A DNA stretch of 64,000 bases from Catellatospora sp. IY07-71 (GTDB taxonomy: Bacteria; Actinomycetota; Actinomycetes; Mycobacteriales; Micromonosporaceae): assembly GCF_018326265.1 (NCBI RefSeq), contig NZ_AP023360.1, positions 3,649,501-3,713,500 of the forward strand. Direction: 5' to 3'. A program made the position numbers and the translations under genes. Below the pieces are notes generated by a model. That model did no database searches. It worked only from the letters and a program-made list of their open reading frames with translations, and was not told where the DNA came from. Shown piece after piece: positions 23,941 to 27,995 of the stretch; within the stretch, counting starts at the first letter, position 1, and each line of letters opens with the position of its first letter.

Positions 23941-26900
23941 TCAGGCGCCGTGGTAGGCGAAGGCCGCCCAGTACTGCGGATCGGCGTAGGGGTGCTCACC
24001 CGAGCCGCCCTCCGGAACGACGCCGGGCAGCAGCGCTGTCAGGTCGGCGTGGGTGGCGGCGCGCAGCCACTGCTGGGCGCGGTTGAGCGCGACGGCCGGC
24101 TCCTCGCCGCCGTGACACCACCGCTGGTAGAACGCCGTCATCAGGTACGTGGTGGCGAGATCGTCGACCGCCCACGCCGTCGCGAGCACACCCGCGAACC
24201 CTATCTGGATCAGCACCGACGGCAGCCCGACCGCCTCGTTCGGCATGGCCGTGCCGGTGACGTTCGTCCGGCACGCCGACAGCACCGCCAGCCGCCGCTG
24301 CCCCGGCCGCAGCTCCTGCTGCAGGTCCGCCAGCGTGACGGTGCGGTCGGCGAAGTAGAGGCGGCTGTCCAGGATCGCGTCCGGGTCGGCCGCGCCGTGA
24401 CACGCGAGATGCCAGACCGTGTACTGCTCGGCCGTGGCCTGGAACTCCGCCCACGTGCACCCGTGCACCGGCGCGGCGGCCTCCCCCGTCCAGCGCCTGG
24501 TGACCTCGGTGGCCTCGCGCCCGACATGGCGCAGGCGGTGGTCGGTAGAGAGGCCGTACCCGTCCGGCACGTCGACCGCGAGCAGGGTCTGTGCGCGCCC
24601 GGCCAGGCCGCGTGCCGTCTCGCGACAGCGTCGCAGGCCGCGCGCGTTGGGCGCGTACCGGATCGCCGAGAAGTTGCCGACGTGGCGGCCCTCGGTGAAG
24701 CGGTCCCCCGGCGCACCCGGCTCCCCGATCGCGTGCAGCGGCAGCAGGCCCAGCAGCCCCACCGGGATCAGGGTGACTACCCGGCCCCGCGCGCTCTGCC
24801 AGACCAGGTTCCCGATGCCGGCGTGCCACAGCGTGCGCATGCCGTCTGCCAGCGGATCGGCCGGAGCGGCCCCCACCAGCTCGGCGTCACGCGGGGCCCG
24901 CACCAGCCGGGGGACGCCGGTCACCGGATCCGCCCCGGGCAGCACCTTGGCGACGATCTCGGCGACGGCCGCGCGGCCGAGCCTGGGCAGGTCGACGTAC
25001 TGCGGGTCGTGCGTCGCGGCGACGACGAGCGCGTACCCGCCCGCCTTCGCGGCGGCGAGGTAGACCAGCGCGCCGTCGCCCGTCTCGGCGGTGACGTCGG
25101 CATAGCTCACGTCGAGCGCCAGCGGATCGGCCCCCGTCGCCCCCGCGACCCGCCTGGCAACCTCGCGCAGGGCCGCCCATGACTGCCGCAGCTCCGCGGT
25201 CGGCCTGCGCTCCTTCGCGCGAAACGCCTCGATCGCGTGCTGGTACTCCTGGGCCAGCTCGGCGTGGCCGGACGCGCGCAGCCGTGCCAGGACCTCGACG
25301 TTGTCCCGCCCGAACACCTCCGACAGGCCCACCGCGCGGCCGGTCTCCAGAGCGAGCACCGCCTCCCGGAACCGCCCGGCGCGCGACAGCCAGTAACCGG
25401 CGTCCTCGGCGTACTCCTGCGCCGCGGCGAGCACCCGCTGCTTGGCGCCCGCGCCGTACCGGGCGACGGCGTCCTGCGTGGTCAAGGTGACGAGCTGCGC
25501 GTACGCCTCGGCGGCGAACTCCGGGACATCGGTGCCGACGGCCCACTGCGCCCACGCCGCGGCGAGCCTGGCCCGCGCGGCGGTGCTCCAGGGCGCGTCC
25601 ACCGTGTTCCGCCAGGCCCGATGCCGCCGTGCGCTGTCGGGGCGGCCCCGCAGCGCGTCGCGCGCGGCGAGCGCCTCCTGGAGTAGCAGGCGGTCGTCGG
25701 CGCCGTGGATGTGCCATAGGCGGCACCTGCGGCGGATCAGCCGCACCGCCTCTCGCACATCACCGGCCTGCTGATCCGGCTGCGGGTCCGGCCGCAGCGC
25801 CCGCCACAACAGGAGCGTGGCCAGCGCGGTGTCGGCGGGCGTGACCCGGCGCCACCAGCGCAGCCCCGCCCGGCGACCGTCCCGGCACAGCGCGATGGCG
25901 TCGTCGAGACAGGCGTCGAGCCTGGCGCCCTCGAGACTGCCGTGCCCCATCCGAGCCTGCAGCATGGCCCGCGTGGCGAGGAGCTGCGGCCGCAGCCGCC
26001 GGGCGAGCGGGCCGGTCGCGCGCAGGCCGGCGCCCAGCTCGCGCAGGGCAGCCGGCAGGTTGCCCGTGACCACGTGCAGCCGCGCCCGCACCAGGTGCCC
26101 GATGGCCCCGTCGAAGCCGGACTCGTCGAGGTGCCGGACCAGGGCTTCGAGCGGGCCGGTGTCGCCGTGCACCTCCGCGGTCTCGATGGCCGCGTCGGCG
26201 TGGCTCAGCGCCAGCCACGGATTCGGGCCGAAGACGCCTGTCAGGCCACGAGGCTCCTCGGTGGCGGGTGGCCTCGGCTTCTCCCCGCGCACCGCCGCCC
26301 ACCTCATGGGCGGCAGCCCTTCGAAGGCCGCGGCCGGGGACCGGCGATTGTCCTGGATGGTCCGGCGGGAATGATGCCGCGAGCGCATCTCGTGGACGCG
26401 CTGGATCTCCCGGCGCTGGTGGTCCATGAGCACACTGCGGGCGCGGTCCTCGACGTCGCTCATCGCGGCGAGCAGATCCGCCTCCCACGGGAGGCCGATG
26501 GACTGCTCCCGCGTCAGCAGCATGGTGCACAGGGAGACGAACTGGCGTGCGACTGTCCGTCTGGAGCTCTTGTCGTCGTCCTCAAGGTCACGGGTGTCCA
26601 CGAACGGATAGCACTCCAGCACGTCGTGCGCGGCGCTGTCGAGATCGCCGAACTCGGCTGCCAGCTGCACCATTCCGAACATGGCCGCCGCCACGGACGT
26701 CCCGTTGCCGGCTGTCGGCCATGCCGCCGGTTTGGCCTGCCGGAAGGACCGCCAGGCGGCGTCCGCCGCCGCGCGGTCGGCCCGCAACCAGGCATCCTTG
26801 TACTCCCATTCGTGCTGGTCGAGCTGGGCGAGCTCCCGGCGGTAGGGGTTCGGGCCGTTCAGGAGGTGCCGGATCTCGAAGCCTCGGGCAACGTGGGCCC

Positions 26901-27084
26901 ACGGCTCGACAAAGGTGGGATCGGCCGGCTGCCCGCACTGAGGGCACGGGAACGGCCACGACCGCGGCGCGGGCTCGTCGCCGGTCCCGCACTCCTCGTT
27001 GTTGCACTCCCAGCCCTTCACGCGTGCCTCGGGCGGCGCCTGGTAGCCGTACGAGGTGCGTGGGAACCGCCGACCCGGCGACAT
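23941..27084 (-). CDS. CHAT (caspase-like) domain protein with N-terminal zinc ribbon and TPR region
   Basis: 1047 residues. N-terminal zinc-ribbon-like cluster Cys27, Cys32, Cys47, Cys50 (CNNEEC ... CPQC). A long helical TPR-like scaffold spans about 70-640. The C-terminal CHAT protease domain covers roughly 670-1047, with the caspase-type dyad visible: His896 in HLACHG and Cys938 in LSACRT. Such proteins cleave partner proteins, and some act in abortive-infection defence or signalling, with a sensor or activator encoded nearby. Two small genes are transcribed divergently from the other side of the 59-base intergenic palindrome. Partner and target are unknown. ATG start, no strong ribosome site. 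Confidence 0.88.
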   Translation of the reverse strand: MSPGRRFPRTSYGYQAPPEARVKGWECNNEECGTGDEPAPRSWPFPCPQCGQPADPTFVEPWAHVARGFEIRHLLNGPNPYRRELAQLDQHEWEYKDAWLRADRAAADAAWRSFRQAKPAAWPTAGNGTSVAAAMFGMVQLAAEFGDLDSAAHDVLECYPFVDTRDLEDDDKSSRRTVARQFVSLCTMLLTREQSIGLPWEADLLAAMSDVEDRARSVLMDHQRREIQRVHEMRSRHHSRRTIQDNRRSPAAAFEGLPPMRWAAVRGEKPRPPATEEPRGLTGVFGPNPWLALSHADAAIETAEVHGDTGPLEALVRHLDESGFDGAIGHLVRARLHVVTGNLPAALRELGAGLRATGPLARRLRPQLLATRAMLQARMGHGSLEGARLDACLDDAIALCRDGRRAGLRWWRRVTPADTALATLLLWRALRPDPQPDQQAGDVREAVRLIRRRCRLWHIHGADDRLLLQEALAARDALRGRPDSARRHRAWRNTVDAPWSTAARARLAAAWAQWAVGTDVPEFAAEAYAQLVTLTTQDAVARYGAGAKQRVLAAAQEYAEDAGYWLSRAGRFREAVLALETGRAVGLSEVFGRDNVEVLARLRASGHAELAQEYQHAIEAFRAKERRPTAELRQSWAALREVARRVAGATGADPLALDVSYADVTAETGDGALVYLAAAKAGGYALVVAATHDPQYVDLPRLGRAAVAEIVAKVLPGADPVTGVPRLVRAPRDAELVGAAPADPLADGMRTLWHAGIGNLVWQSARGRVVTLIPVGLLGLLPLHAIGEPGAPGDRFTEGRHVGNFSAIRYAPNARGLRRCRETARGLAGRAQTLLAVDVPDGYGLSTDHRLRHVGREATEVTRRWTGEAAAPVHGCTWAEFQATAEQYTVWHLACHGAADPDAILDSRLYFADRTVTLADLQQELRPGQRRLAVLSACRTNVTGTAMPNEAVGLPSVLIQIGFAGVLATAWAVDDLATTYLMTAFYQRWCHGGEEPAVALNRAQQWLRAATHADLTALLPGVVPEGGSGEHPYADPQYWAAFAYHGA

Positions 27085-27112
27085 GAGCGACCTCCCTCGA
27101 TCCGCACCGGTT

Positions 27113-27134
27113 CTGACGGACGCCGGTCCGTCAG
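27113..27134. promoter_or_regulatory. Palindrome between CHAT gene and divergent small genes
   Basis: Arms CTGACGGAC (27113-27121) and GTCCGTCAG (27126-27134) with a 4-base spacer, in the 59-base gap between the divergent starts at 27084 and 27144. A plausible shared operator. Confidence 0.4.
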
Positions 27135-27143
27135 TCAGCGGCC

Positions 27144-27545
27144 ATGGGACTGTTCAACCGGGCGCCTCGTCCGCGCCTGCCCGCCGACATGCCGCAGCTG
27201 CTGGAGACGTTCGGCCGGTACTGGCTGGACGAGCACCACAGCGGCATCGACGGCGGGGAGCTGTGGAGCCGCCTCGGAAAGCTGTACGAGTACGCCCGCA
27301 GTGATCGCACCGGCTTCCTCCGGGAGCTGGGGGCGATCACCGCGGCGGACCGGGGAGGGTTCGCGACGCTCGGCGCCGCCCGCCTCGTCTGGGAGTTCTT
27401 CGACAGCGACGCCCGGCGCGATCCGGCCACGCTGCCGTTCATCGACGCGGGCATCGAGTTCAAGCTCGCCCGCGGCCTGCCGAACGCCATGTTGACGGGC
27501 TACGAGATGCGCCGGCTCGCCGAGCTCCGCGAGCAGGCCGGCTGA
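27144..27545 (+). CDS. Hypothetical protein, divergent neighbour of the CHAT gene
   Basis: 133-residue soluble, mostly helical protein (LLETFGRYWLDEHHSG, LWEFF-like helix ARLVWEFFDSDARRD, YEMRRLAELREQAG). I do not recognise a family. No signal peptide or membrane segment. Position opposite the CHAT gene and 42 bases before a small membrane-protein gene suggests a three-gene unit, but that is inference only. Confidence 0.65.
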   Translation: MGLFNRAPRPRLPADMPQLLETFGRYWLDEHHSGIDGGELWSRLGKLYEYARSDRTGFLRELGAITAADRGGFATLGAARLVWEFFDSDARRDPATLPFIDAGIEFKLARGLPNAMLTGYEMRRLAELREQAG

Positions 27546-27587
27546 CCGGTCCCTCCCGTTTCCCTCATCCGAGACAGGAGAACTCCG

Positions 27588-27995
27588 TTGGAAGGATTCT
27601 GGTGCTTCGTCTTCGTCGCCGGCACCATCGGCGCGCTGGTGTGGCAGTTCATCGAGACGCGTGGCGCGGTCGCGACGACGACGGTCGTCACCTCGTACGC
27701 GCCGGATGACGCGGCGCGGATCGTGCAGGGCGCGTTCGGCGGCCCCCGCGCCGTCTTCTGGACCACGGCCGGCGGGCCGGGCACGATCAACATGCGGCGG
27801 CGGGGCGTCCGCGGCGGCATCACCATGTCCATCGACATCAGGCCGCGGCCGGGCGGGGGCTCCCAGGTCGACATGTGGGCCTCGGAGACCGCGATCTACC
27901 TGGGCGTACTGGTCAACTTCGCCGGTGTGGTCAACCGGCGCAAGCGCGCGATCGCCCGCCTGCTCGACACCTCGGCGTCACCCGCCGTGCGGTGA
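27588..27995 (+). CDS. Small membrane-anchored hypothetical protein
   Basis: 135 residues with one N-terminal transmembrane helix (FWCFVFVAGTIGALVWQFI) and an alpha/beta domain (SYAPDDAARIVQGAFGG ... AVFWTTAGGPGTINMRRRG). The TTG at 27588 is the start: ACAGGAG lies seven bases upstream and no ATG or GTG fits. The pattern resembles small membrane-tethered domains found widely in actinomycetes; function unknown. Confidence 0.68.
   Translation: MEGFWCFVFVAGTIGALVWQFIETRGAVATTTVVTSYAPDDAARIVQGAFGGPRAVFWTTAGGPGTINMRRRGVRGGITMSIDIRPRPGGGSQVDMWASETAIYLGVLVNFAGVVNRRKRAIARLLDTSASPAVR

Follow-up and report, generated by a model that had tools for sequence, protein, structure and literature searches.

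A ribbon-bearing CHAT protease subfamily with an adjoining small helical protein and a shared upstream element in Micromonosporaceae

CHAT proteases are plentiful among actinobacteria, but, to our knowledge, few of them have an identified partner or trigger. The soil bacterium Catellatospora sp. IY07-71 encodes one whose gene faces two small genes, here called SP1 and SP2, raising the question of whether these belong with the protease and what ties the three together. We analyzed the locus within a stretch of 64,000 nucleotides (the window) from a genome of 8.6 Mb in a single contig; the nearest named relative found was Catellatospora bangladeshensis (Micromonosporaceae). An earlier note, made from the letters of the window, had described a 1047-residue zinc-ribbon/TPR/CHAT protease opposite an unrecognized helical protein and a membrane-tethered protein. 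Its coordinates, lengths, and strands for all three genes are exact (Table 1).

Table 1. Positions of the three genes and their features in the window
Feature	Position	Strand	Basis
CHAT-domain protease gene, 1047 aa	23941..27084	-	Pfam PF12770
CHAT domain, residues 750-1046	His896 at 24397-24399, Cys938 at 24271-24273	-	Pfam and 13-orthologue alignment
Ribbon-like motif, Cys27-X4-Cys32 ... Cys47-X2-Cys50	26935..27006	-	Cys invariant in 13 orthologues
GTCCGTCA element, left arm, facing CHAT	27114..27121	-	29 nt from annotated CHAT start
GTCCGTCA element, right arm, facing SP1	27126..27133	+	10 nt from SP1 ATG
SP1, 133-aa all-helical protein	27144..27545	+	AlphaFold2 pLDDT 88; adjacency in 15/15 ribbon-CHAT loci
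SP2, 135 aa, TTG start, N-terminal membrane helix and small alpha/beta domain	27588..27995	+	Model; adjacency in 10/15 loci

The CHAT assignment is strong, with a match to PF12770 at E 2.4e-38 (132.7 bits against a curated cut-off of 24). The caspase-type dyad that had been proposed, His896 and Cys938, is present and invariant in all 13 sequences of an orthologue alignment, the 12 others being 44 to 85% identical to the window protein. This conserved dyad makes it very likely that the ribbon-bearing CHAT protein is an active cysteine protease. The four cysteines of the N-terminal CX4C…CX2C ribbon (27, 32, 47, and 50) are likewise invariant across the alignment, as are most residues of an RTSYGY motif ahead of them; the ribbon is conserved across this CHAT subfamily. 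No Pfam zinc-ribbon model matched the ribbon at its cut-off; it may bind metal. As for the TPR scaffold, Pfam gave no TPR family in the mid-protein region, even at E up to 10, and PDB searches matched the catalytic core alone, so the label rests on architecture. PADLOC-DB returned BovA only, at E 4e-4 over 59 residues of that core.

SP1 is indeed predicted, with confidence, to be helical, and it is unmatched in the libraries searched. Its AlphaFold2 model is one compact domain preceded by a basic, poorly ordered N terminus (mean pLDDT of 58 over the first 10 residues). No family in Pfam, NCBIfam, or PADLOC matched at E up to 1, and comparison of the model with PDB structures gave no significant relative (best Foldseek E of 1.6); a VIA Z of 5.4 is in the range expected of unrelated helical bundles. 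SP2 begins with a hydrophobic helix (residues 2 to 28; Kyte-Doolittle maximum of 1.89), in agreement with the membrane tether proposed for it, and also lacks a Pfam, NCBIfam, or PADLOC match at E up to 1. Its model has a pLDDT of 71 overall, and the alpha/beta domain, of moderate confidence, is possibly SRPBCC- or KA1-like, given weak structural matches to folds of these types (Rv2186c for SRPBCC; E at best 4e-3, TM ~0.4-0.5).

Do the small genes belong with the protease? Searches for SP1 homologues covered Micromonosporaceae (19 of 301 genomes), GTDB named genomes, and the class (5 of 395), and a separate search for ribbon-bearing proteins covered the order (6 of 399 genomes). A GC3-based heuristic that assigns start codons mechanically supplied the gene calls, and locus counts refer to sampled genomes, related species included. 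All 15 intact loci have SP1 directly beside the ribbon-CHAT gene, and in 10 of them SP2 follows SP1; a locus with only a short ribbon protein and no SP1 (L202) and a weak partial match (G331, E 1e-4) were left out of this count. Twelve of the loci are from Micromonosporaceae and have SP1 and CHAT divergent. The other three, from Streptomyces turgidiscabies (L066) and at L200 and L201, are convergent, and at the last two the genes overlap by 16 bp. The association that was to be looked for in relatives is thus present, which supports the earlier suggestion of a link between the protease and the genes facing it. Further, the distances between SP1 proteins and between CHAT proteins correlate, with an r of 0.83 that is inflated by common descent.

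SP1-like genes also lie beside CHAT genes with no detected ribbon, at a second Catellatospora locus (L043/L045), at L229 (convergent), and at L230 (divergent), and one lies ~2 kb from such a gene at L228. Genomes with this arrangement include G834, G703, and, at ~2 kb, G657. For a small neighbor in L228, a comparison with SP2 gave no support for kinship.

SP1 can also stand alone. The window's genome holds a third copy without CHAT (L044), with a counterpart in a relative (L046); loci L091 and L094 have SP1-SP2 pairs without CHAT, and L099 to L103 and L231 have SP1 forms without CHAT that are more distant, several of them extended at the C terminus. Because some genomes keep SP1 and SP2 with no CHAT beside them, SP1 probably has some independent role. 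These solo copies (L044 and L046 with the right half-site only), the pairs at L091 and L094, and a two-domain form of SP1 without CHAT at L100 to L102 would all fit a history in which the genes are neighbors merely through a shared divergent promoter or joint travel, SP1 having a function unrelated to CHAT. A shared promoter, however, cannot account for the convergent order of SP1 and CHAT in three genomes outside Micromonosporaceae, and the convergent pair at L229 is also promoter independent. SP1-like genes adjoin unrelated CHAT subfamilies as well, and no intact ribbon-CHAT gene without SP1 was found in the sampled genomes, all of which makes mere neighborhood distinctly unlikely. That SP1 sits next to CHAT in both orientations, across several families, and beside different CHAT subfamilies speaks for a function together with CHAT proteases.

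Two observations concern SP2 by itself. In genome G148 (L096 4368-6964), an insertion of ~2.6 kb with a transposase-like frame splits SP2 and leaves CHAT and SP1 intact. In the Micromonosporaceae genome G013 (L011 ~1476-1501), a solitary SP2 is preceded, at 9 nt from its start codon, by a GTCCGTCA element of its own, and no SP1 was found in that genome.

The gap between CHAT and SP1 is 59 bp long and, as the earlier note had stated, palindromic. The perfect palindrome CTGACGGAC-GCCG-GTCCGTCAG at 27113-27134 consists of two copies of GTCCGTCAG set back to back and pointing apart, each an instance of a positioned element that other conflict-type genes also have. Where SP1 and CHAT are divergent, in Micromonosporaceae, the pattern between them is TGACGGAC-n-GTCCGTCA. 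Its arms are 2 to >20 nt apart, and the arm facing SP1 lies 9 to 10 nt from the SP1 start codon in nearly all of these loci. The solo copies at L044 and L046 retain their own arm only, and at the two loci that lack CHAT but keep SP1-SP2 (L091 and L094), the far arm has one change each, which is weak evidence. Outside Micromonosporaceae, the SP1-CHAT loci L066, L200, and L201 showed no element.

In the 8.6-Mb genome, the palindrome with a gap of 1 to 12 nt occurs at two sites, both of them CHAT/SP1 pairs, against ~0.026 expected and none for a reversed control; widening the gap to 0 to 26 nt adds one gapless site. Across the 301 Micromonosporaceae genomes, there are 80 palindrome sites against 10 for the reversed pattern (summed by hand). 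About 15 of 20 examined sites without SP1 fall among clustered CHAT, vWA, Hsp70-like, kinase, or caspase genes and the others do not; this reading comes from the translations, and ten of the proteins were compared with Pfam.

The second CHAT-SP1 locus of the window's genome (L043 6150-14420 / L045; genome 3485000-3500000) has the same palindrome. Downstream of its gene pair lie a membrane protein, a possible PP2C-like protein (20.4 bits against an NCBIfam cut-off of 230), a protein kinase, and a vWA protein, neighbors that we take to resemble a TerY-P-type triad. The gapless palindrome, TGACGGACGTCCGTCA, is at G000:C1:3363345-3363360 (L130) and occurs once each in the genus genomes G004, G007, and G010.

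Single copies of the element, with the consensus GTCCGTCAGAnnnnGGCATG, are also positioned. GTCCGTCAG usually stands 8 to 9 nt ahead of start codons, and when GTCCGTCA is measured to the called start codon at any distance, 9 nt is commonest (21 cases), followed by 10 nt (5 cases). Among 54 non-redundant genes with the element 8 to 10 nt upstream, 44 have it at 9 nt; this count is conditioned on that range, includes chance sites, and draws in part on loci fetched by a fixed-distance pattern. The CHAT start in the window, 29 nt from its element, departs from the usual 9 to 10 nt. In eight genomes, the pattern GTCCGTCAG-n8-RTG gave 53 matches against 10 for controls. Thirty of these 53 have a CHAT domain no more than 20 kb away, where ~2 are expected, and once elements within 40 kb are merged, 16 of 37 clusters are near CHAT. 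Presence of the element was the reason for choosing these eight genomes, which contain >90 CHAT domain matches, and some of the 53 sites are plainly background. Genes downstream of the element include members of the CHAT, VWA, Peptidase_C14, HSP70-associated, and kinase families. The element is thus shared by, positioned before, and clustered at CHAT, caspase, vWA, and Hsp70-associated genes in Micromonosporaceae.

An RNA hairpin or terminator, in place of paired regulatory half-sites, would also give perfect inverted repeats, some of which have arms of 17 to 19 bp (L048 and L092). Single copies nevertheless stand at equal spacing before CHAT, caspase, and SP1 genes, and in most genes the element stays 9 to 10 nt from the start codon whatever the gap between the arms, which ranges from 0 to >20 nt. 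At L122 (G286), moreover, several GTCCGTCA copies form a tandem array in ~45 bp between two divergent genes. These features make a hairpin or terminator very improbable.

Because the distance to the start codon is fixed, we considered a possible ECF-sigma -10 (CGTC) with near-leaderless transcription; no conserved -35 was seen upstream of the element among the aligned element-bearing genes. A Crp-like protein was also tried as the general regulator; it has close matches of 67 to 100% in eight element-bearing genomes and is unlikely to be the general factor because the window's genome has a match of only 39%. Crp-like regulators (cNMP-binding plus HTH_Crp_2) do occur, not universally, in or near several element clusters (L156 9848-10543, G027:C17:33886, and G173:C21:238943). 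Literature searches found no paper on the CHAT domain with Micromonosporaceae and, by the letters of the element, no relevant paper among the matches listed.

We propose that the locus is a co-regulated module of a protease and its dedicated partner, belonging to a conflict-type regulon, and give this reading a probability of about 0.55. CHAT and SP1-SP2 would be turned on jointly from the back-to-back copies of GTCCGTCAG. SP1 would be the dedicated CHAT partner, probably binding the long N-terminal part of the protease, and may either hold the protease inactive or present a signal or target to it. SP2 would be a Micromonosporaceae-specific, membrane-anchored accessory that places or reads out the complex at the membrane. 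The module may be one of a set of co-regulated genes of conflict or cell-death type that share the element.

Alternatively, SP1 or SP2 may be the substrate, cut by the CHAT protease upon a signal to free an active fragment. Type III-E CRISPR systems, whose Csx29 cleaves Csx30, and bacterial gasdermins, which are cut by proteases, are precedents. SP1 obligately adjoins ribbon-CHAT, its basic and poorly ordered N terminus offers a possible cut site, and the only PDB matches of the CHAT profile are craspase CHAT proteins. Set against this, several genomes keep SP1 without a CHAT neighbor, the rest of SP1 is a compact helical domain with no obvious linker, and Pfam gave no gasdermin family match; a substrate role seems rather unlikely. 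An inhibitor or adaptor role for SP1 is somewhat favored over that of a toxic substrate because SP1 survives without CHAT.

The partner module proposed here resembles several known systems in part. The best NCBIfam and PDB matches of the window CHAT protein are to the type III-E craspase Csx29 (TPR-CHAT), a protease whose own operon also encodes the protein on which it specifically acts. The likeness is confined to the catalytic core, at 26.2 bits against the NF041237 cut-off of 300, and, unlike Csx29, the window protein has a ribbon N terminus and neighbors that family libraries do not recognize. Csx29 was the only NCBIfam model reported at E up to 1, with no match to the EACC1-associated caspase model, and the reported hits included no model for the CATRA domain of the ternary CATRA systems. 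As in bacterial gasdermin-protease pairs, a caspase-like protease adjoins a candidate effector, but SP1 and SP2 are ~130 aa long and have no gasdermin match in Pfam. Caspase/CHAT/vWA conflict-type genes of actinobacteria have been described, including the VMAP and EACC1-caspase systems (Kaur et al. 2020, PMC7159879) and the CATRA systems (PMC8195603). The module shares with these systems caspase-clan peptidases, small co-occurring partners, and vWA and membrane components, and one caspase of the element-bearing set matches the NCBIfam model caspase_w_EACC1 below its cut-off. It differs in that SP1 and SP2 have no match in the family libraries searched. Searching the two papers (PMC7159879 and PMC8195603) for a promoter gave no hits, nor did searching PMC7159879 for a palindrome.

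It is because of the shared element that we group the module with caspase/CHAT/vWA conflict-type genes, and such a grouping may point to phage defense or cell death. With slightly less than even confidence, we further suggest that one undescribed cis-element, GTCCGTCAG-n8-RTG, and a trans-acting factor switch on CHAT, caspase, vWA, and Hsp70-associated conflict genes throughout Micromonosporaceae and that SP1 founds a family of CHAT partners across several actinobacterial lineages. SP1, tied to one CHAT subfamily in several lineages, offers a direct biochemical entry point. If the suggestion is true, the shared positioned element would make the whole suspected set of defense or cell-death genes findable by sequence, and the signal that induces them could be searched for.
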